Source: a virus. Taken from it: a DNA stretch of 46,994 bases. The translations under genes were made by a program, and so were the position numbers. Every line of letters starts with the position of its first letter. Within the stretch, counting starts at the first letter, position 1. This document shows, in pieces, positions 8,231 through 44,421 of the stretch. Where the stretch lies: positions 1 to 46,994 of the IMG/VR virus record IMGVR_UViG_3300036852_000016; one strand, given 5' to 3'. The notes under the pieces were generated by a model. That model was not told where the DNA came from, ran no database searches, and saw only the letters and a program-made list of their open reading frames with translations.

Positions 8231-8275
8231 GTCTCTACTGATGGGGTAATTCCGCCCCCGACTAAGAGAGGCTAC

Positions 8276-8626
8276 ATGAAAACACTGGTTGGCAAGTTCA
8301 CGTTCGCTATCCCGGACGGTCATCCGCAGGCTGGTGAGAAAATCGAAAAGGCTTTCGATTATTCTCAGACTGAGAACGACTCAGAAGCTTCCGGAATTAT
8401 GACCGAAAAGAAGTGGTCACTTTCCGGAATGGTGAACGACGTTCTCAAGGCGAACGCACGCAGCAATGCGTATCAGGCTGCACTACTTCCGTATCGTCCA
8501 TCGGAAGTATCGCCTGAGGATATCAAGGAGCGGATGATTCGAGATTACATCCGCCTTGGTATTCCGGAAGATACGGCACGCAAGCAGGTCGAAGCTTTGC
8601 TTGCAGCCGCGGCACCGACGGCGTAA
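8276..8626 (+). CDS. First early protein, unknown function
   Basis: The protein is 116 aa with ribosome site AGAGAGG just before ATG 8276. The start MKTLVGKFTFAIPDGHPQAG suggests a small beta domain. The second half is helical with YRPSEVSPEDIKERMIRDYI. Its G+C looks higher than most neighbours and its codons look adapted, as for the SSB-like gene at 17244. That suggests high early expression. I do not recognise a family with known activity. First-gene position behind a strong promoter fits host take-over or replication control. Confidence 0.85.
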   Translation: MKTLVGKFTFAIPDGHPQAGEKIEKAFDYSQTENDSEASGIMTEKKWSLSGMVNDVLKANARSNAYQAALLPYRPSEVSPEDIKERMIRDYIRLGIPEDTARKQVEALLAAAAPTA

Positions 8627-8756: not shown

Positions 8757-9035
8757 GGGTTTCCCCTACTATTTCCCACCTATAGCTAATCGCACAATTG
8801 CTTTCGCTACGCGAAAAAGTTATATGCTAATCGCATATTAATAATATTATCATTCTCTTTTGTTATCTTCGCCCTCCCGCGAAAGTCTCGCTACAATCGA
8901 ATATGAGCACGCGCGCAAGCCATCCAGCCAGTCAGGTATTCCCCTCTCGAATTCCCTTCCCATATTGAAGCCTGACGCTATTACGCTATATCCTGCGCGC
9001 AAGTCTCGATTCTATTTGACAGTCCAGCCACAAAG

Positions 9036-9051
9036 AGCATAATATTATGCT
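9036..9051. repeat. Perfect 16-bp AT-rich palindrome
   Basis: AGCATAATATTATGCT is fully self-complementary. It shares the AATATTAT core with the four TAATATTATC decamers in this region. A protein-binding or melting element at the origin is possible. Confidence 0.5.
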
Positions 9052-9131
9052 AACTATACTATTATCTTAACCATTCTGAGAAAAAACATTGAATCAGATA
9101 TACTTCCGGAACCCTAATTCTCCTAATACCA

Positions 9132-9174
9132 TACTGTCTCCTTACTGTTTCCTATCTGTCTCCCTACTGTCTCC
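9132..9174 (+). repeat. Left iteron array (four 11-bp units)
   Basis: Units are TACTGTCTCC (9132), TACTGTTTCC (9143), TATCTGTCTCC (9153) and TACTGTCTCC (9165). Spacing is 10-12 bp, close to one helical turn, so a protein would bind one face of the DNA. Confidence 0.7.
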
Positions 9175-9440
9175 TACCGGTCTTTTTGGGTCAAGTGCTT
9201 GACTGTCAACGACTTACACGAAAGGGGGGGACTCCGGCTATGGCCTATACCGGCATTTGTGCCACTTTGGGCTACAGTTAGGGGTTGTGGTTCTTTCTTT
9301 ATTTTTTTTTTTTTTTTTAATAATATATACCATAATAATATCCCATCCCAAACATGGGATTTAATGGTGGTATAGGCTATACCGGAAGTCGGGGGGTTGG
9401 CCCTAACTGCCTCAGAATCAACGACTTAGGCCCGATTCGG

Positions 9441-9495
9441 CAGTAGGGAAACAGTAGGGAAAGAGTAGGGAAATGGGAGGGAAACAGTAGGGAAC
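9441..9495 (-). repeat. Right iteron array (five 11-bp units, inverted)
   Basis: Units are CAGTAGGGAAA (9441), CAGTAGGGAAA (9452), GAGTAGGGAAA (9463), TGGGAGGGAAA (9474) and CAGTAGGGAAC (9485). The period is exactly 11 bp. The complement, TTTCCCTACTG, matches the left array motif. Confidence 0.75.
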
Positions 9496-9620
9496 CCGGA
9501 GTTTAGTGTTTCCGTTATTCAATTGAGAACTATGCAATATTATAATATTATCAATCTGATACCATGAAGAAGCGAAACACTAATATTATCTTCGCCTTTT
9601 GTTCGCTGTGTCTAAAAGAC

Positions 9621-9658
9621 TGTGGTAAATCGGCCACACTTGTGGTAATTTTACCACA
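9621..9658. promoter_or_regulatory. Tandem TGTGG/CCACA inverted repeats (operator candidates)
   Basis: TGTGGTAAATCGGCCACA (9621-9638) and TGTGGTAATTTTACCACA (9641-9658; 8-bp perfect arms) sit side by side. They lie about 30 bp upstream of the -35 box at 9690. The first resembles the spacer of the 8202 promoter. Repressor or activator sites are inferred. Confidence 0.55.
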
Positions 9659-9679
9659 GCGAAAGCACAACAGCTTGTG

Positions 9680-9696
9680 GTGACAAATTTTGTCAC
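9680..9696. promoter_or_regulatory. 17-bp palindrome overlapping the -35 box
   Basis: GTGACAAATTTTGTCAC has perfect 8-bp arms around one base. Its right arm overlaps the TTGTCA -35 element at 9690-9695. A protein bound here would block or tune the promoter of the replication operon. Confidence 0.6.
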
Positions 9697-9717
9697 ACTA
9701 TTAGTAGTTGGTATAAG
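9690..9717 (+). promoter_or_regulatory. Promoter of the replication operon
   Basis: TTGTCA (9690-9695), a 16-bp spacer and TATAAG (9712-9717) make a plausible sigma70-type promoter. It lies about 85 bp upstream of the 9804 gene. The leader contains the hairpin GTGTCC/GGACAC (9742-9761). Confidence 0.55.
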
Positions 9718-9741
9718 ACTTGCATCTTGTAGTGCCGTAAG

Positions 9742-9761
9742 GTGTCCGCCAAATAGGACAC
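9742..9761 (+). other. Leader stem-loop upstream of the replication operon
   Basis: GTGTCC and GGACAC pair around an 8-nt loop. It is placed shortly after the predicted transcription start, like the leader hairpin of the leftward operon at 7655. Confidence 0.45.
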
Positions 9762-9803
9762 TAATATTATCAACTATTTTCAGAATAACCCTCAGGAGTC
9801 AAA

Positions 9804-10538
9804 ATGGAAAGAATCAGAAAAGGTAATGATTATTTCGGTGAATGTGAATGCTGTGATGCTTCACATACTGAAGAAAATCCTGTCAAGATTACAGTCCACT
9901 ACGGTAATATGTGGTTCTGTGATTCTTGCTGGGCCAAAGAATCAGAAGTTACCAAAGAGTTAAAAGCTACTAATCAAGTCCAGAATGTAGTTACCAACGC
10001 CTTGCGCGAAGCGGCACACGTTGATAATACCGTGCAAGTCCGGACGGATTTATTCAACGCTCAAACAGTTTCCATTATCAATCTGAAAGCTGAGATTGAT
10101 AACAATCCAGAAATCGTGAATAAACCATATGTGCTCGCTGAGCAACTTATGGCGCGTTTCGAGAAATTCAAATCAGTAATCTTCGAATATAATGAGAAGA
10201 TTGTTGAAGCGAATAACGCTCAAAAAGCCATCCAAGTATATCTTAATCAGATGGCGAATCAATTGCGTAGTGAAGAACGTGAAAAACTTAAGATTGCTGA
10301 TATTTCGTATCAGCCTGCCAAAGTAAAGCCTGTCACTCCACGTTCTATTAAAACTACCGGAACTAAGAAGTCTACTAAACTCGATAAAGTTGAGCTTCGC
10401 AAGTATGCTGCGGAGTTAGGCGTAGCAGAATTTACACTTCAGATGGTAGTAGTTGCGAAAGGATGCAGTATTCAAGAGGCTGCGGAAATGCTCAAAAAGA
10501 GTATTAATGCTGCTAAAACTCAGACTGCTACGGAGTAA
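9804..10538 (+). CDS. Zinc-binding helical protein, first gene of the replication operon
   Basis: The 244-aa protein has ribosome site AGGAG before ATG 9804. An N-terminal four-cysteine cluster (GECECCDASH, then WFCDSCWAKE) suggests a zinc ribbon. The middle (residues about 55-170) is a long helical region (NPEIVNKPYVLAEQLMARFE). The C-terminus is basic and helical (VELRKYAAELGVAEFTLQMV). Its place beside the iteron region makes it a candidate origin-binding protein, but I recognise no initiator family. Function unknown. Confidence 0.85.
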   Translation: MERIRKGNDYFGECECCDASHTEENPVKITVHYGNMWFCDSCWAKESEVTKELKATNQVQNVVTNALREAAHVDNTVQVRTDLFNAQTVSIINLKAEIDNNPEIVNKPYVLAEQLMARFEKFKSVIFEYNEKIVEANNAQKAIQVYLNQMANQLRSEEREKLKIADISYQPAKVKPVTPRSIKTTGTKKSTKLDKVELRKYAAELGVAEFTLQMVVVAKGCSIQEAAEMLKKSINAAKTQTATE

Positions 10539-10732: not shown

Positions 10733-12940
10733 ATGAATCGAAATACTGCAACAAAACTATTACGCGACGAATTAGATAAGCATGGACTTAATGATTGGTC
10801 CATTCGTCTAATTCCTAGTGATAATGCATTAGGTCTGTGCAGTCATACAGATAAATGTATTATACTCAACGCTCACCATGTAGATACACATCCTGAACCT
10901 GAAATTAAGGATACTATTCTACATGAGATTGCACACGCATTAGTTGGTCCTAATCATGACCATGATGCTACATGGACAACTAAAGCAATGGAGTTAGGAT
11001 GTAATAACCTAACTAAATGTGCAACAATAAGTTTGGACCCTCGTATCATTGACGCGATTCGCTCTGGTGCTACTATTCAAGTAGAATTTGAAGAACCCAC
11101 TATTGAGCGTAACGTCAAAGTCGAGGAAAAGGTTTACAGACCTAAATATCAGGTAACACGCTTACAGGATAAATGTCCTGAGTGTGGTAAGGTCGCCGTC
11201 GAGAAGTTTGCAATTAATACTGTGGACAAAGAAGGTAATGAAGTAAAGCTCATTACTCTTGAATGCTTCCACATTATTAAGAAGGTAATTCCACGCGCTA
11301 CTCAGTATGAGACTATGGTTAGTAATGATTGGAAGCCTGAAATTAAAGCTTGCAAACATGACTGGCCCACTAAAGAGGAAGCGCGTGAGAAGCATATTCC
11401 TAGCAATTGCTGTAAGAAGTGTGGAGAATTCAAACTCTATAACTTCCAGACAGTAGGTGCTCGTGCTGCGGAAGTAGCATTAGCTGTGCAGAAGGGTTAT
11501 GGAATCTTCGATGATATGGGCCTTGGTAAGACTATTCAGGCTCTAGCATTGTTGAGGTTCCATGCTAAGACTTATACACCTACGATGGTGGTTACTAAGT
11601 CTGCTATTAAGTTTCAGTGGTTTAAGGCTGCTGTTACATGGTTAGGTCCAGAATTCATCGGACAGATTATCTCAACGTCAAGAGACTATCTCATGCCGGG
11701 CCTCAAGTTGTATATCATTCCATATGATTTACTTCGTAGGTTCCCGCGTGAGAAATTACATGCATTAGGTATTAAGTTAGTAATACTTGATGAGGTTCAA
11801 CAGATTAAGAATCCTGATAGTTCGAGAACACAGGAAGTGCGTAAACTTGTGTCAGCTAATAGTGACTGCAAAGTCATTGAATTATCTGGCACACCTTGGA
11901 AGAATCGTGGTAGTGAATTCTTCCCCGCGCTCAATTTAATTGACCCTGTGAAGTTTCACAGTTATCAGCATTACTTAGATACATGGGTTGAATTCTATTA
12001 CGAAGGCGCCAAGAAAAAGATGGGCGGTATTCGTAATGTGAAGAAATTCAAGGAATACACTTCATCACTCATTATGCGTCGTGAGTATAATGAAGTGATG
12101 GATGAATTCCCTGAAATTAATCGTATGAAGTTGCCTGTGCAACTTGATGACTTACAACAGTCTACATACGATGACTCAGTATCAGAATTCGTTGAATGGT
12201 ATAATGAGTATGTTATCGGTGGTGAGGAAGATAAGATATCTGGTATCGAAATCCTCGCAAAAATGGCGCGTATGCGTCATATCACCGGACTTGCTAAGAT
12301 ACCAGCAACATTAGGTTTCCTCGAACAGTTTATTGAGGATACCGACAGGAAGATTGTAGTATTTGTCCATCATAAAGACGTTGGGCAATTGCTGATAAGC
12401 GCACTTACCAATTGTAGCAAGGAAACTAATCCTGATTGGTATGAGTTCGCACAAGAATTACGTAATCAGGGAATTAAAGTATTCTCATACACTAGTGAGC
12501 ATACTGGTAAACCTGCTGGATATCAGTTACAAGAGGACTTTAACGCTACTAAACGCTGTATCATGATTGCATCTACACTAGCGTGTGGTGAGGGATTAAA
12601 CCTTCAAACATGCGCTGATACTATGATGCATGAGAGACAGTGGAATCCTCAGAATGAGGACCAAGCTGCGCCGGGACGTTTCCGTCGTATTGGTCAGGCG
12701 TCAAGTGTTATCAATATCACGTTCCCTGAGGGGGAAGGAACTATTGATGAACATCTTGATGTAATTGTCGAAACCAAGCGTCGTAATTTCCATGCAGCCA
12801 TGAATAAGGGTGAAGCTCAGACATGGAATGAAGGCGAAATTGGTAAACAATTAGCAGAAGTAATTGTGCGTAAGCACAAAGAAAAATTCAAAGGTGTTAA
12901 GACTGCGGCTAAGTCTGTAACGGCTGCGGCCAGACTATAA
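10733..12940 (+). CDS. SprT-like protease fused to SNF2-family helicase
   Basis: This is a 735-aa fusion. Residues 1-100 are SprT-like, with LHEIAHALVG (H64, E65, H68) and then NHDHDATW (H77), the zinc-metalloprotease motif of Spartan/SprT proteins. Two cysteine pairs follow (CPECG near 148-151, CCKKCG near 226-230). The SNF2 core has Walker A DMGLGKT (261-267), motif II LDEVQ, motif III LSGTPWKN, motif V ACGEGLNLQT and motif VI GRFRRIGQ. Spartan enzymes digest proteins crosslinked to DNA and SNF2 motors displace proteins from DNA. A single enzyme that removes roadblocks from phage DNA is a reasonable inference. It sits directly downstream of the candidate origin. Confidence 0.9.
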   Translation: MNRNTATKLLRDELDKHGLNDWSIRLIPSDNALGLCSHTDKCIILNAHHVDTHPEPEIKDTILHEIAHALVGPNHDHDATWTTKAMELGCNNLTKCATISLDPRIIDAIRSGATIQVEFEEPTIERNVKVEEKVYRPKYQVTRLQDKCPECGKVAVEKFAINTVDKEGNEVKLITLECFHIIKKVIPRATQYETMVSNDWKPEIKACKHDWPTKEEAREKHIPSNCCKKCGEFKLYNFQTVGARAAEVALAVQKGYGIFDDMGLGKTIQALALLRFHAKTYTPTMVVTKSAIKFQWFKAAVTWLGPEFIGQIISTSRDYLMPGLKLYIIPYDLLRRFPREKLHALGIKLVILDEVQQIKNPDSSRTQEVRKLVSANSDCKVIELSGTPWKNRGSEFFPALNLIDPVKFHSYQHYLDTWVEFYYEGAKKKMGGIRNVKKFKEYTSSLIMRREYNEVMDEFPEINRMKLPVQLDDLQQSTYDDSVSEFVEWYNEYVIGGEEDKISGIEILAKMARMRHITGLAKIPATLGFLEQFIEDTDRKIVVFVHHKDVGQLLISALTNCSKETNPDWYEFAQELRNQGIKVFSYTSEHTGKPAGYQLQEDFNATKRCIMIASTLACGEGLNLQTCADTMMHERQWNPQNEDQAAPGRFRRIGQASSVINITFPEGEGTIDEHLDVIVETKRRNFHAAMNKGEAQTWNEGEIGKQLAEVIVRKHKEKFKGVKTAAKSVTAAARL

Positions 12941-18067: not shown

Positions 18068-18325
18068 ATGAAAAGATTTTACGTAACTTCAAGTCCGGGC
18101 GTGAGAATCCAGACTATGAAGCGTAAGCCTCGCGTCATAGCACCTAGACTCTTTAGTGGTGAGCGTAGGGAGTCAATAGGTCATGGTCTGCCACCAGAAA
18201 TAAAGTCGGGACTTCGACTCATCGCTCGCAACGAGAATAAGTCTGTTTCATGGGTATTGGAGCAGATTATTATTAAATATTTTGGGTTCAAAAGACCCAA
18301 ATACATCGAAAGGAAAAAGAAATGA
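18068..18325 (+). CDS. Ribbon-helix-helix-like DNA-binding regulator
   Basis: The 85-aa protein has a basic N-terminus. It then shows HGLPPEIKSGLRLIARNENK followed by SVSWVLEQIIIKYF, which matches the strand-helix-helix pattern of Arc/MetJ/CopG repressors ('LP.ei...L...A...n.s.s.vl...i..y'). It is the best regulator candidate in the genome for the palindromic sites near 7.9-9.7 kb, by inference. Ribosome site GGAG before ATG 18068. Confidence 0.7.
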   Translation: MKRFYVTSSPGVRIQTMKRKPRVIAPRLFSGERRESIGHGLPPEIKSGLRLIARNENKSVSWVLEQIIIKYFGFKRPKYIERKKK

Positions 18326-18593: not shown

Positions 18594-18902
18594 ATGGCAA
18601 ATGCGTTTCAGAAGTTCTTTCAGGGGGATGCACCCACTGAACCTGATACCACACCTGTTAAGCCAAATGAACAACGGGTGAAAGGTAAGATTATCAAGGT
18701 ATCCGAAGATGGATGGGGTTTTATTTCATCCAAGGATATCAAGTTCACTCGAATCTTTTTCCACTGGACTTCCCTGAAACAAGATACTCTCAAGTTTCAG
18801 GAACTCAAAAACGGAATGAAAGTGGAATTCACACCAGTTGAAGTTGCTGACAAAGGCTGGCGTGCAATCAAGATTCGAGTGTTGAAAGATGGTGAATCGT
18901 AG
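18594..18902 (+). CDS. Cold-shock-domain RNA/ssDNA-binding protein
   Basis: The 102-aa protein has a disordered N-terminus followed by a cold-shock OB-fold (about residues 28-98): VKGKIIKVSEDGWGFISSKD with RNP1-like GWGFI and RNP2-like IFFHWTSL. Strong ribosome site (AGGAG, 7 nt). Such proteins bind single-stranded nucleic acid and melt mRNA structure. That would fit an operon full of stem-loops. A second, shorter cold-shock protein is encoded at 24678. Confidence 0.85.
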   Translation: MANAFQKFFQGDAPTEPDTTPVKPNEQRVKGKIIKVSEDGWGFISSKDIKFTRIFFHWTSLKQDTLKFQELKNGMKVEFTPVEVADKGWRAIKIRVLKDGES

Positions 18903-19191: not shown

Positions 19192-19339
19192 AGATGAATG
19201 GTGCAAGATGTGGGAGTCCATCAAAATTATTGAATATGAACTACCCATGCCTATGCATTCTGACCGTAGAAAATTTATTGAACAGGAAGTTCAAAAAATA
19301 AAAAGGTCTATTCAAAAAGTAATTGGTCAGATGGAATGA
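19178..19339 (+). CDS. Small helical protein (53 aa)
   Basis: ATG 19178 follows GGAGG within the end of the previous gene and the stop overlaps the next start (ATGA). The product (DEWCKMWESIKIIEYELP ... FIEQEVQKIKRSIQKVIGQM) is a helical, probably dimerising protein. No family recognised. Confidence 0.65.
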   Translation: MSLTRDEWCKMWESIKIIEYELPMPMHSDRRKFIEQEVQKIKRSIQKVIGQME

Positions 19340-19590
19340 CATTCTTAGAGCGATATAACCAAGAAACAACATGGCATGGAAAAGCCATAGTGATGGAAAT
19401 TTATCACTTGGCTATGTCTACGCGCTCTAAGAATTGGACTATCACTAAGACTGCTGAACACTTCGAATGTAGCATTGGGCTAGTATCTGAGAACTTAAAA
19501 TTAGCCCTCGCACTACATACTCAAACAGAGTTAATCAGATGCAGTTCACGGCAAGACGCCTTAAAGTGGTTAAACGGAAAACATGGCTAA
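19336..19590 (+). CDS. HTH DNA-binding protein, unknown role
   Basis: The 84-aa product carries WTITKTAEHFECSIGLVSEN, a helix-turn-helix of the ParB/sigma-like type, followed by LKLALALHTQTELIRCSSRQ. Phage proteins with this 'WTI..TA..F.CSIGLVSENLKLA' pattern are familiar to me as small regulators of unknown target. It overlaps neighbours on both sides by a few bases. Confidence 0.7.
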   Translation: MTFLERYNQETTWHGKAIVMEIYHLAMSTRSKNWTITKTAEHFECSIGLVSENLKLALALHTQTELIRCSSRQDALKWLNGKHG

Positions 19591-19783: not shown

Positions 19784-19940
19784 TATAACTAGTCCTACTA
19801 CTAATCAACAAACTGGTAATACTTGTCCTGAATGTGGCAAACAGTGGTTAGATGATAAACCTACACCAGGTATAATTCATCGAACTAAATTTTGTGATAA
19901 CTGTGCTTTCTGGCACGATAGCGAACCTGATAAAAAATGA
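19764..19940 (+). CDS. Small zinc-ribbon protein upstream of the polymerase
   Basis: ATG 19764 begins inside the preceding gene. The 58-aa product has TCPECGKQW and KFCDNCAFWH, two CxxC knuckles with about 20 residues between. Its stop overlaps the polymerase start (ATGA), so the two are translationally coupled. Confidence 0.7.
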   Translation: MLTKPPDITSPTTNQQTGNTCPECGKQWLDDKPTPGIIHRTKFCDNCAFWHDSEPDKK

Positions 19941-22600
19941 GCGACGATAAGAAATACGTAGCGGGGCATGGGCCAATAGGCGCGAAGCTTATGATACTAG
20001 GGGATGCCCCTACGTATAAGGATACCGCTTCAGGTAAAGCATTTACAGACTCAAAAGAACTTAACCAACTATTACCAGACACCGGTATTCGTAAAGAAAA
20101 CTGTTGGCTGACTACGGTTTCTAAATATGAAGTCCCACCTAATACTGGGAAGAAAAGAATTCCATTTGCTGTCCGTGCCAAAAATGCTGGCATTGATATA
20201 GAACAACAACTCCATGAATTGCAGGAAGAAATTAATGGAATCAAACCCAACTGTATTTTGGCTGTCGGCGGAACTCCTTTATGGGCACTCTCTGGAAAAA
20301 CTAAAATTGGCAACTACCGTGGAAGTATCATGCATGGCATGGGAGTTAAATTCGTCCCGAGTTATAATCCAGCTCACTTGTCATGGCACGCGACAGATGT
20401 TGAATTCAAAGGATACTGGAATCGACAAATAATGATTTTCGACTTTAAGCGTGCATATGCACAAAGTCGATATCCAGAATTAATCCTTCCCTCGCGCACA
20501 CTCGAAATCTGTAAGAATAGCGCACAGCTAGCCGAATTCAGACAGCGATACAAGGGTAAGCTTAGAATGTCTGTGGACATTGAAGCTAACGGAACTTGTA
20601 TCCCTGTTTGTATTGGACTAGCTTTCAATAAGCATCATGGGATGTGTGTTCCACTATGGAATACAGATGGTATCTCTACTATTCCCTCAGCAGACTTAGT
20701 TCAATGCTGGATAATTCTAGCGGAGATGCTCTATGAAAACGAAATCATCGGACAAAATTTCAATTACGATAGGGATAAAATTAAACGACTTGGTTTCATT
20801 ATACGAAAGCTCGCCTCCGATACCATGCTTAAGGCTCATGCGATTAATCCAGAACTCCCTAAAGGACTCGCATTTAATACCTCCCTCTTTACAGAAGAAC
20901 CTTTCTATAAAGATGAAGGTATGTATAAAGGGAAAATCGAAGATTTACTCAGTGGATGCGCACGAGACGCATGTGTTACATTTGAAGTAGATGAGAATAT
21001 GAATGCAGACCTAGATGAATTAGGTCAGCGTCAATTCTTTGAGAATTTCCTGATGAAATTCCCTGACTTGTATTGGGAAATAGAAAAGCAAGGATTTCGA
21101 GTAGACCATCCTGAACGTGACCAACTATTACGTAAATATGTTGAGTGGGATGAGAAGTGTCGATATGAACTATTCAAACTCACTGGTGCAGAAATTAATG
21201 TTAATAGTCCTAAACAAATTGGTATACTACTGTGGGAGAATCTTAAACTTCCTCGAAAAGAAAGCACAGGTGAAGAAGAAATTACTGCTTTACTTAATTC
21301 TCCCACTGCCATCAAAAAGCCGGAACATAGAAGAATATGTGAGCTTATTCTTGAGGACCGTCGTGTTAGAAAATCCATCTCTACATATCTCATGGCACTT
21401 CCAGACTACGATGGTAGAATGCGAACGACGTACTTTCCTTGTCTTGATACAGGAAGAAGTTCCACAGGACAACAAGACCCACCAATTAGACCAATCGTCG
21501 AAGTTATAGATGAAAATGGAAAGAAGAAAGATAAGGTATTAGGCACAGCCTTCCAAACCATGACAAAGCATGGTGATATCGGTGCAGACATACGTGGTAT
21601 GTATGTGCCCGATACCTTCCACTTTGAAACCATTGATGATATAATGGTTCAAATAGAGGAAGAAGAAGAATTTGTTCAAGCTGACTCATCACAAGCTGAG
21701 GCCAGAGTAGTATGGTTACTCGCAGACGATGATGAAGCTTTGAAATTGGTAGATGAAATAGACTACCATGCTCACACAGCTACATGGTTCTTTGGACGTA
21801 ACGAAGAACTATTTGATTACGACAAAAAGAAGTTAGGCTATGAACATCCAATTCGATTCTGTGGAAAAACTCTACGCCACGCGGGGCATCTTGGCGCTGG
21901 TAAACGACGTGCAGCCATCGAAGTTAATACCCAAGCGCGTAAGTATAAAATTCCAATCGCAATCACTGAACAGATTGCAGAACGAGCTTTACAAATATTC
22001 CACAGTAAGCAGCCTAGAATACAACAAGTATTTCAGACTGGTATTGTAGAGTGTTTGAGGAAGAACCGTCAACTAGTAGCAGGATTGCCATACGGAATAG
22101 ATGCACCTGCTGGTGGTAAAAGAACATTCTTTGAGCGTTGGGGAGAAGAACTTAATAGACAAGCATTCTCTTACATACCACAACGCACCGTCTCAGATAA
22201 CACTAAAGCTGCTGCAATTAGAATTCGTGAACGTATACCACACATTAAGATTGTGATGGAATCTCACGACGCACTCTTGTTCAGTATACCCATCAGTAAG
22301 AAGATGGAATGGATTCCTATTATTAAAAAGGAGATGGAACGACCAATAGATTTTTCACAATGCTCACTACGTAGACACAAACTAAAGATTCCGTGTGAAG
22401 TGGAAGTTGGTAAGAACTATAGGGACTTCAAGAAGTTCAAGGATATACCAATTATTGCTGAACCTACGGAATTACTAAACATGCCACCTAAGACTGTAAC
22501 TGAGTCTTTCCTCGCGTCTGTTATACCACCAGACACTAGGCTTACAGATATCATTTACAGTCATGACAAGACTATTCGGAAATTTGAGGTAGGAGAATAA
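19937..22600 (+). CDS. polA: Family A DNA polymerase with N-terminal UDG-like domain
   Basis: This 887-aa protein has three parts. Residues 1-175 resemble family 4 uracil-DNA glycosylases (AKLMILGDAPTYKDTASGKA, then ENCWLTTVSKYE), but the usual GEAPG is GDAPT, so activity is doubtful. A 3'-5' exonuclease follows: D214/E216 (SVDIEANG), D278 (FNYD) and D344 (CARDAC). A glycine stands where Tyr is expected four residues before D344. The polymerase has motif A D583 (ADSSQAEAR), an odd motif B with K644 and R647 (GKTLRHAGHLGAGKRRA), and motif C H777-D778-A779. The usual HDE is therefore HDA. Similar UDG-polymerase fusions are known from SPO1-like phages. Confidence 0.93.
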   Translation: MSDDKKYVAGHGPIGAKLMILGDAPTYKDTASGKAFTDSKELNQLLPDTGIRKENCWLTTVSKYEVPPNTGKKRIPFAVRAKNAGIDIEQQLHELQEEINGIKPNCILAVGGTPLWALSGKTKIGNYRGSIMHGMGVKFVPSYNPAHLSWHATDVEFKGYWNRQIMIFDFKRAYAQSRYPELILPSRTLEICKNSAQLAEFRQRYKGKLRMSVDIEANGTCIPVCIGLAFNKHHGMCVPLWNTDGISTIPSADLVQCWIILAEMLYENEIIGQNFNYDRDKIKRLGFIIRKLASDTMLKAHAINPELPKGLAFNTSLFTEEPFYKDEGMYKGKIEDLLSGCARDACVTFEVDENMNADLDELGQRQFFENFLMKFPDLYWEIEKQGFRVDHPERDQLLRKYVEWDEKCRYELFKLTGAEINVNSPKQIGILLWENLKLPRKESTGEEEITALLNSPTAIKKPEHRRICELILEDRRVRKSISTYLMALPDYDGRMRTTYFPCLDTGRSSTGQQDPPIRPIVEVIDENGKKKDKVLGTAFQTMTKHGDIGADIRGMYVPDTFHFETIDDIMVQIEEEEEFVQADSSQAEARVVWLLADDDEALKLVDEIDYHAHTATWFFGRNEELFDYDKKKLGYEHPIRFCGKTLRHAGHLGAGKRRAAIEVNTQARKYKIPIAITEQIAERALQIFHSKQPRIQQVFQTGIVECLRKNRQLVAGLPYGIDAPAGGKRTFFERWGEELNRQAFSYIPQRTVSDNTKAAAIRIRERIPHIKIVMESHDALLFSIPISKKMEWIPIIKKEMERPIDFSQCSLRRHKLKIPCEVEVGKNYRDFKKFKDIPIIAEPTELLNMPPKTVTESFLASVIPPDTRLTDIIYSHDKTIRKFEVGE

Positions 22601-24677: not shown

Positions 24678-24920
24678 ATGCATGGTCTGGTAAAGAATCT
24701 GGTCCAAGGAAAGAATTTTGGTTTTATCAGGGGTGAAGATGGTAAAACTGAATACTTCTTTCACAGGGAAGATTTCGCGGGGTTTTGGGACGACCTCGTG
24801 ACTGATTGGCAACGTGGTAAGAATAGTCACATTGCTGTAGAATTCGATGTTGTCAATTCGCCTAAAGGTATTCGTGCGGCTCATGTTAGGAGATTGGACC
24901 ATCCTAATCAGGGAACATAA
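24678..24920 (+). CDS. Second cold-shock-domain protein
   Basis: The 80-aa protein consists of one cold-shock OB-fold: LVKNLVQGKNFGFIRGEDGK with the RNP1-like NFGFI, then YFFHREDFAGF and SPKGIRAAHVRRL. Good ribosome site (TAGGAG) and 10 nt after the Acb2-like stop. It is a distant paralogue of the 18594 gene. Likely binds single-stranded RNA or DNA. Confidence 0.8.
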   Translation: MHGLVKNLVQGKNFGFIRGEDGKTEYFFHREDFAGFWDDLVTDWQRGKNSHIAVEFDVVNSPKGIRAAHVRRLDHPNQGT

Positions 24921-41435: not shown

Positions 41436-41762
41436 CTAGGCTACTGCGAGCTTTCCGCCAGAGTATTTCTTGGTAGCAGGATTGTAGAACATCAATACTA
41501 CCTGTCCTGCTGTAGTTGCTGCGATTGCTGTGGCGATATTACCCGCAGCAGTCATAGCCCAAGTTCCAGATGATACAAGAATTAACATATGTGCGCCTTC
41601 TTGCGGAGGCGTAATGTTAACAATTGCAACAGCACCTGAAACCACACTTAAAAGAGTAGTAGGAGCAATTGTTGCTGCCGATGCAAGAGTAACAGGCATC
41701 GGCTGTAACAAAGTCTGTGGTAGTGCGAAGTTTCCAGCATTAAGGTCGGGACTTTGTGCCAA
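41436..41762 (-). CDS. Candidate head decoration protein
   Basis: The 108-aa Ala/Thr-rich beta protein (LASAATIAPTTLLSVVSGAV, ILVSSGTWAMTAAGNIATA, TAGQVVLMFYNPATKKYSGG) immediately follows the capsid gene. Small Ala/Thr-rich beta-proteins in this place commonly decorate capsids. Named from position and composition. Confidence 0.65.
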   Translation of the reverse strand: MAQSPDLNAGNFALPQTLLQPMPVTLASAATIAPTTLLSVVSGAVAIVNITPPQEGAHMLILVSSGTWAMTAAGNIATAIAATTAGQVVLMFYNPATKKYSGGKLAVA

Positions 41763-43056: not shown

Positions 43057-44421
43057 CTAGTCTGAGTTTAGAAATTCTAGTGTGGACATTCCTTTCGGAA
43101 CTTCCTTAGCTTTATCAGACTTGCCACTTTGTCTTTCTTGGGAACGTGGCCTTCCAGATGGAACTGGACCCCTCTTATTATCGGAGTCATTGTCGTCCCT
43201 AACACGATGGCCTGTGCCGCGTAAAGCTTCGTTCCGGGCCTTTTTTAAGAGTGCAGGCAGCACTGTCTTAGCTTTACTAACATAGGCCGAGCGAATTCTA
43301 TCGGTTGATTCTTTGGTAAAGCCATCAGCAAAAGCTTTTTCCCAAAGTTTATCCAAAAGTGCTCTGAAACGGCTATCTTGATTGATAACCTTCTCAAGAC
43401 TATCCATAGTGTCACGCGCTGCATTCTTGCGCACGTAATCTGTCATTGACTTTTTAGGGTCAATATGAGCATCAATGGTATTCTTGAGAGTGTTATTAAC
43501 ACGCGTATTCAAATCATTACGCGTGTTTTCAAATTGTGTGCGAACATAATTCTGCTCGCGTTCTGCCAGTTGTTTTTCTCTAGTATTGTCCTCAGGTTTA
43601 TCCTGATTGGACAATTGAGTAGGTGGTTTGAAGTCTGTTGTTCCAAACACAAATTGATTCAGTAAAAGGGCTGCATTCTGTAATGCAACACCGGCTTGTG
43701 GTTTTCCCTCAGCATCCATTTGAACACCAAGTCTGCGTGCTTCTTGCACCATTGAAACAATAGTGTGTTTGGTAATGTTACCAATCACATGATAGTATGC
43801 CTTCTCATCAACTTTCGCGAGAGTAGGCAAATAGTCATCTACAATTTTACAGAATCCATTAGGATTAGTTGCCTTGACAGCCTGTAGAACTGTCTCAGTT
43901 GAACCACTCATTAAATCACCCTCGAATCTATCGAGGATTTCTGATTTTTCTACGGCAGCTTTAGCATCTGCAATAGTAGGTAGAAGTTCTGTGAACTGTT
44001 GTTCACGATAGTATGCCTTTTCGAGATAAGGAAATTTCTTAAAGAGGTCTGGATATTCTTTAAGAATTTCTTTACGTCGAACAGGTGTTACAAGTTCCAA
44101 CTGTTCTTCAGTTGGTGGTTCTAGTTCATCTTCTATTTCAGCAAGTTCATCTACTTCTTCTTCCTCATCTTCTTCCTCATCCCCTTCGTCAGGGATTTCT
44201 TCTTCTTCTTTTTCTTTATCCTTTCCTTTATCTTTATCCTTATCCTTGTCTTTATCCTTGCCTTCCTGCAAGTCAATAACGTCTGGTTTATCGTCATCAG
44301 CCCCCAGAAAATCAATGATATCAGTTTTGCTCATTTCACCAGATGCAGCTCCACCAGTAGGAGTTCCACCAGTGGGTGTATCAGGAGGACTCATCAATAG
44401 ATAGTTAGACAGTTGCAACAT
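43057..44421 (-). CDS. Scaffolding-like protein with KD-repeat and acidic tract
   Basis: The 454-aa protein has start ATG 44421 with GGAGAAG about 6 nt upstream. The N-terminus is Gly/Thr-rich, then a run of repeated Lys-Asp pairs (KDKDKDKDKGKDKEKEEEE) and a long Glu tract. The middle and C-terminal parts are helical (ARDTMDSLEKVINQDSRFRA, TVLPALLKKARNEALRGTG) with a basic, Ser/Arg-rich tail. Position between portal and capsid and its helical, charged nature are typical of scaffolds. The GATAAG-type nucleotide repeat at about 44219-44262 is a slippage-prone tract. Confidence 0.8.
   Translation of the reverse strand: MLQLSNYLLMSPPDTPTGGTPTGGAASGEMSKTDIIDFLGADDDKPDVIDLQEGKDKDKDKDKDKGKDKEKEEEEIPDEGDEEEDEEEEVDELAEIEDELEPPTEEQLELVTPVRRKEILKEYPDLFKKFPYLEKAYYREQQFTELLPTIADAKAAVEKSEILDRFEGDLMSGSTETVLQAVKATNPNGFCKIVDDYLPTLAKVDEKAYYHVIGNITKHTIVSMVQEARRLGVQMDAEGKPQAGVALQNAALLLNQFVFGTTDFKPPTQLSNQDKPEDNTREKQLAEREQNYVRTQFENTRNDLNTRVNNTLKNTIDAHIDPKKSMTDYVRKNAARDTMDSLEKVINQDSRFRALLDKLWEKAFADGFTKESTDRIRSAYVSKAKTVLPALLKKARNEALRGTGHRVRDDNDSDNKRGPVPSGRPRSQERQSGKSDKAKEVPKGMSTLEFLNSD

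Follow-up and report, generated by a model that had tools for sequence, protein, structure and literature searches.

A conserved candidate replication origin with inverted 11-bp repeat arrays around a T-tract in a group of uncultured phages

Results

Genome setting and anatomy of the element

The stretch of DNA that we analysed (the window; 46,994 nucleotides, IMG/VR record IMGVR_UViG_3300036852_000016) is a complete circular phage contig whose first and last 127 bases are identical, giving a genome of 46,867 bp. The late genes, such as those for terminase and the major head protein, lie on the - strand, while the replication genes lie on the + strand, starting at 9804, and encode an SprT-SNF2 helicase fusion, a PD-(D/E)XK exonuclease, a Sak4-like protein, a UDG-PolA fusion and a DUF3987 primase/helicase. 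The first of these proteins (10733-12940) joins an SNF2 helicase to an SprT-like protease domain, and the polymerase (19937-22600) is a DNA polymerase A with a fused N-terminal uracil-DNA glycosylase domain (PF03167, PF00476) that is common to all relatives read. Two cold-shock-domain proteins are also encoded within the operon (18594-18902 and 24678-24920), the first of which is present in nearly all relatives. A non-coding gap (Table 1) has small + strand ORFs on one side and the replication operon on the other. No close relative of the phage was found among 50,697 phage records, in which full-length matches to the polymerase are about 25% identical or less even at their best, nor did the DNA of the gap resemble any of these records, and a host search for a relative of the polymerase in genome contigs found none.

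Within the gap lies a non-coding element of about 370 bases (9125-9496), in which two mirror-image arrays of 11-bp units surround a 17-T/AT-rich core. The original prediction, made from the sequence alone, had described four units on the left and five on the right on opposite strands, with a 17-T tract and two hairpins between them. TRF, inverted repeats and shuffles agree with this description, to which a fifth, degenerate left unit can be added: TRF delimits the left array to 9132-9175 (period 11, four copies), and in register it comprises five units. The arrays are far beyond chance, since lag-11 matches reach 25/33 on the left and 29/33 on the right, against at most 21/33 when the gap was shuffled 1000 times with its dinucleotides preserved. 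Lag 22 also gives a signal in the arrays, and lags 10 and 12 give none. The spacing is exactly 11 bp, as had been claimed, whereas the accompanying claim that the units present one protein face holds only approximately, the DNA helix having about 10.5 bp per turn. The same motif lies on opposite strands in the two arrays (inverted repeats I1-I3), which point outward from the T-tract. The latter is present as described and is the sole run of at least 10 T or A in the genome. The two hairpins could be located as the nested dyads I4 and I5, and outside them two 27-bp dyads, one beside each array, had been overlooked.

Matches to a promoter consensus flank the element on both sides (13 vs 5.5 in shuffles). 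Further to the right, a block (GCGAAACACTAATATTATCTTCGCCTTTTGTTCGC, 9575-9612) is almost invariant among close relatives, and conserved operator-like dyads, TGTGGTAAAT..CCACA and TGTGGTGACAAATTTTGTCACA, lie at 9620-9695, in place of which other phages have GTGTCC..GGACAC dyads nearby. The sequence AATATTATC has four + strand copies in the whole genome, all of them inside the gap.

Table 1. Positions of the element, its parts and the associated genes in the window.
Feature	Position	Strand	Evidence or remark
o116, conserved gene for a small protein, to the left of the gap, second candidate binder	8276..8626	+	low-confidence model
Non-coding gap holding the element, about 1 kb	8760..9803	.	ORF list; gap kept in relatives
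Sigma70-like promoter directed into the element, TTGACA, 16-18 bp, CATAAT/TAATAT	9016..9045	+	consensus match only, 11/12; partly kept in G001
Left iteron array, five 11-bp units, outermost degenerate	9125..9179	-	TRF, shuffles, unit alignment; AGnnnRGAAWS on - strand
Left 27-bp dyad TCAAGTGCTTGACTGTCAACGACTTAC	9191..9217	.	same-length dyad on both sides in most HTH-bearing relatives
Inner inverted repeat I4, left arm	9230..9257	.	79% complementary to 9363..9390
17-T tract, beginning of an AT-rich core that runs to about 9343; putative unwinding element	9302..9318	+	one per genome in most relatives
Hairpin I5 beside the T-tract, arms 9326-9346 / 9354-9374	9326..9374	.	inverted-repeat search
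Inner inverted repeat I4, right arm	9363..9390	.	pairs with 9230..9257
Right 27-bp dyad CTAACTGCCTCAGAATCAACGACTTAG	9403..9429	.	same comparison as left dyad
Right iteron array, five 11-bp units, AGTAGGGAAAC type	9442..9496	+	TRF, inverted repeats, shuffles, unit alignment
Sigma70-like promoter, out of the element toward replication genes	9523..9551	+	consensus scan 10/12; TTGAGAACTAT conserved in close relatives
g244, conserved gene to the right of the gap, N-terminal CxxC..CxxC motif	9804..10538	+	found with and without arrays
RHH-like protein, patchy distribution	18068..18325		weak PF01402 match
84-aa HTH protein with a modelled DNA-binding fold like that of ParB/Noc; candidate for binding dyads and/or iterons	19336..19590	+	AF2, fold match, co-distribution

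Conservation among relatives

Relatives drawn from 117 IMG/VR loci were compared at the corresponding place. Both-sided 11-bp arrays could be aligned in 21 loci, with a common unit AGnnnRGAAWS and a period of exactly 11. The layout recurs in at least 21 related loci, its place and order being kept but not the wording of the units. Conservation of the repeats in close relatives, on which the original prediction had made itself depend, was thus checked and the layout found to be kept. An unbiased scan of whole genomes places the period-11 sites of array-bearing genomes first or among the highest. The T-tract occurs once per genome in most relatives, always on the + strand and between o116 and g244, and a dyad CTAAGT-N15-ACTTAG, mostly of exactly 27 bp, lies between array and core on each side. 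One relative (G006, IMGVR_UViG_3300036864_000033, rotated positions about 8251-8390) carries a natural tandem duplication of about 120 bp in which the T-tract core is doubled, leaving two 19-T runs. A search of the available literature returned no description of such an element.

Phages without the 84-aa helix-turn-helix (HTH) protein of Table 1 mostly retain the T-tract, which lies there within a long inverted repeat that is unrelated in sequence (GT-rich, GGGGAGAGAG-rich). In these distant relatives a sigma70-like promoter lies on the right of the inverted repeat, and the right arm begins there; in two of the genomes examined (G019 and G025) the inverted repeat is not above shuffles. The arms of the inverted repeat and those of the array form have opposite purine/pyrimidine polarity, and the two forms are therefore not established as homologous. 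In the isolate Microcystis phage Mel-JY34 (PP438425.1), a long inverted repeat in non-coding DNA at about 44.2 kb holds a 9-T tract in its loop and scores 28 against a shuffle maximum of 17. Mel-JY34 has the same genome layout as the window, and its T-tract and inverted repeat, too, precede early genes and have a sigma70-like promoter on the right; unlike the window, it is without the 11-bp arrays, the 27-bp dyad and the 84-aa HTH protein, and its polymerase is 24% identical. In the relatives that lack the HTH protein, where an inverted repeat of this kind occupies the place of the arrays, it may serve the same function in a different way. In Desulfofustis phage LS06 (L213), three 17-bp repeats (TTACCAGGATAAGATTA type) lie at about 41500-41600, near the GC-skew minimum of that phage, and an A17 tract followed by AT-rich DNA lies at 43246, 1.7 kb from these repeats.

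Candidate binding proteins

The gene for the 84-aa HTH protein lies just upstream of the UDG-PolA polymerase gene. AF2 models the protein as an all-helical HTH domain (pLDDT 95), for which VIA-align gives Z 7.6 with the DNA-binding domain of Noc and 7.5 with Spo0J and ParB, the best match thus falling under the caution line of Z 8. The DNA-binding domains of KorB and VirB are also among the fold matches (ParB/Noc/KorB: Z 6.1-7.6, rmsd 2.1-2.9). Foldseek alone returns E of about 1-3 for the model, Pfam HTH_ParB does not match the protein, and tblastn did not find it in phage records. An HMM of the protein does match the HTH of a ParB_N-HTH-methylase in phage LS06 (E 1.1e-5), the gene of which lies directly upstream of the polymerase.

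The HTH protein is encoded in 14 of 28 examined genomes; arrays and dyads accompany it in 13 of those 14 (more weakly in G024 and G031), and clear arrays and dyads occur in 0/14 genomes without it (G016 being ambiguous), a co-occurrence that is suggestive only, since it follows phylogeny and amounts to few independent events, being clumped on the PolA tree, where HTH presence needs three changes. One genome (G007) has the HTH gene and one dyad, the arrays being absent. Another contig (G027, IMGVR_UViG_3300036851_000016, 62.5 kb), which carries the polymerase gene and the HTH gene twice each, is probably two related genomes joined in assembly. The recognition helix (SIGLVSENL) is nearly constant while the units vary, and we therefore rejected, by eye, co-variation of the helix with the wording of the units; the HTH protein does not explain the variable unit positions. 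From its modelled fold and its distribution, the 84-aa protein is a plausible candidate for the origin binder. The earlier statement that no known initiator is present holds for searches with Rep3, DnaB, ParB_N and ParA, neither a Rep3 protein nor a DnaB-type replicative helicase having been detected, but it needs qualifying in view of this candidate.

Two other proteins were considered and rejected. The model of o116 has a pTM of 0.38 and no fold match, and the gene is also present in G016, which lacks clear arrays. The RHH-like protein is encoded in only 4/19 genomes and is absent from most phages with arrays, for which reason it was rejected as their common binder.

Discussion

Theta origins contain an AT-rich unwinding element along with multiple initiator sites and are often aided by transcription, and iterons in plasmids as a rule keep phase with the DNA helix (PMC5043065). 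The element has multiple phased repeats of one motif that resembles an initiator site, an AT-rich region adjacent to them (17-T, 9302-9343), and a position immediately upstream of the operon with the helicase, exonuclease, Sak4, PolA and primase genes. We infer, with a probability of roughly 0.6, that it functions as a bidirectional iteron-type theta origin. A phage protein, for which the 84-aa HTH protein is the best candidate, would bind on both sides of the core, at the dyads, the phased units or both. Bending or wrapping of the arms would then put strain on the AT-rich core until it opens, and replication proteins would be loaded outward on both sides. Transcription from the promoters beside the element may help the opening, as in phage lambda.

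The original prediction of an origin is thus partly supported, by conservation of the repeats in relatives but not by GC skew as independent proof. The cumulative GC-skew minimum of the circular genome does fall at 9178, inside the left array, and the prediction thereby survived the skew test that it had set itself. However, of 17 complete genomes with the T-tract, only 6 have their minimum at the element, the other 11 having it elsewhere, mostly 1-3 kb to the left, and the GC3 skew of o116, a + strand gene on the left side of the element, is positive, as in the genes to the right. Since skew follows the coding strand, it cannot prove an origin, and we rejected it as such.

As in the phage lambda origin (ori-lambda) and the iteron plasmid origins (P1, F, RK2, R6K), an array of repeated and here putative initiator sites lies beside an AT-rich, strand-asymmetric and here putative unwinding region, with transcription nearby (PMC5043065). 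Unlike in these origins, the units are 11 bp long, contiguous and inverted on both sides of the AT core, an extra dyad lies on each side, and the search for a Rep3 protein or a DnaB-type helicase was negative. The remark in the original prediction that such a layout is unusual for a lytic phage was overstated, because the lambda origin is the prototype iteron origin (PMC5043065).

Because promoter-like sites flank the element, the main rival is a hub of transcription control without origin function, in which the HTH protein would be a KorB/Noc-like regulator that sits on the dyads and arrays and represses or activates the early promoters next to them. The promoter-like sites, present on both sides, outnumber those in shuffles, the right arm of distant relatives begins at a sigma70-like promoter, the DNA-binding domains of KorB and VirB are among the fold matches of the HTH protein, and conserved operator-like dyads follow further downstream (9620-9660). 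However, symmetric arrays around a 17-T/AT-rich core exceed what operators need, the promoters of the window lie outside the arrays, and the T-tract persists in phages that have lost both arrays and HTH protein. We regard such a hub as a serious contender, if an unlikely one.

Where unit columns are variable, identity between the left and right arrays is 0.53 within a phage vs 0.32 with the arrays of other phages, a difference reached by 0/20,000 permutations. This is as expected if the two arms are read by one factor. Gene conversion between the inverted arms would also produce a shared wording, without bearing on function and compatibly with every reading of it. Mixed unit types occur in both arms of one phage (G001, L114), and the HTH helix does not track the wording, as such conversion would have it. 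It nevertheless leaves the constant period, core motif, dyads and placement unexplained, and recombination between inverted arms would flip the T-tract, which is never inverted; we consider conversion as the cause to be distinctly doubtful.

A structured RNA or DNA hairpin, in which the arms pair and the fold rather than the units is what matters, is very unlikely. The 391-nt region does fold strongly against shuffles (z -5.5 as DNA, -6.2 as RNA), and the arms of one phage are more complementary to each other than in cross-phage pairs (36 vs 17), as is also the case in the inner part from the dyads to the T-tract (14.6 vs 10.2 with the inner parts of other phages). Distant relatives also keep an inverted repeat of unrelated sequence. 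However, if pairing were the cause of the shared wording, nested partner units should match best, and they do no better than permuted units (mean z 0.07, standard error 0.17). This speaks against unit-by-unit base pairing of the arms as that cause and leaves a common reader of the arms or recombination. Moreover, the exact 11-bp period and the constant RGAAW core indicate a protein that reads units, and an Rfam search with the element gave no match.

The candidate binder is modelled with a fold whose best matches (Z under 8) are the DNA-binding domains of ParB, Noc and KorB, which act at parS, NBS and OB sites, and its HMM matches the HTH of a phage ParB_N-methylase. The half-sites of ParB, Noc and KorB also end in a GAAA-like sequence, which is a lead only. 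Unlike these proteins, the 84-aa protein is without a ParB_N (CTPase) part or a dimerisation domain and ParA is absent, and unlike their sites, those of the window are tandem non-palindromic units plus a 27-bp dyad. The iteron clusters of R1 parC are in direct orientation, whereas those of the window are inverted. A partition centromere like parC of plasmid R1 or parS is highly improbable: the element resembles R1 parC, with its ten 11-bp iterons bound by ParR dimers (PMC3794156), in having 11-bp units in two clusters of about five, ten in all, and the phage encodes a putative ParB-like HTH fold and an RHH-like protein, but ParA was found in 0/19 genomes (controls matched 14/14) and ParB_N in 0/6, the RHH-like protein is missing from many phages with arrays, R1 parC has no counterpart of the AT core with its T-tract, no integrase was found in 7 genomes, and no plasmid maintenance genes were recognised. 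No ParM was found, the ParM profile PF06406 giving no match either to these phages or to the controls.

Returning to the origin reading, one might go further and suppose that the element belongs to an undescribed kind of phage origin, in which symmetry, period and dT core are selected while the sequence turns over and the arms change their wording jointly. Such an origin would be opened by a stand-alone ParB-derived HTH protein that one lineage would have recruited as its initiator, its sister lineages instead surrounding the same dT core with a long inverted repeat whose sequence is free. We put this forward tentatively, as a possibility that we ourselves think unlikely to hold in full.

For a group of uncultured phages, the element provides a concrete, conserved candidate origin together with a candidate origin-binding protein, and Mel-JY34 is an isolate that gives bench access to a simpler form of it. 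Two arms that lie 270 bp apart and share a wording that drifts between phages constitute a natural experiment on the coevolution of a factor with its sites, or of recombining arrays.
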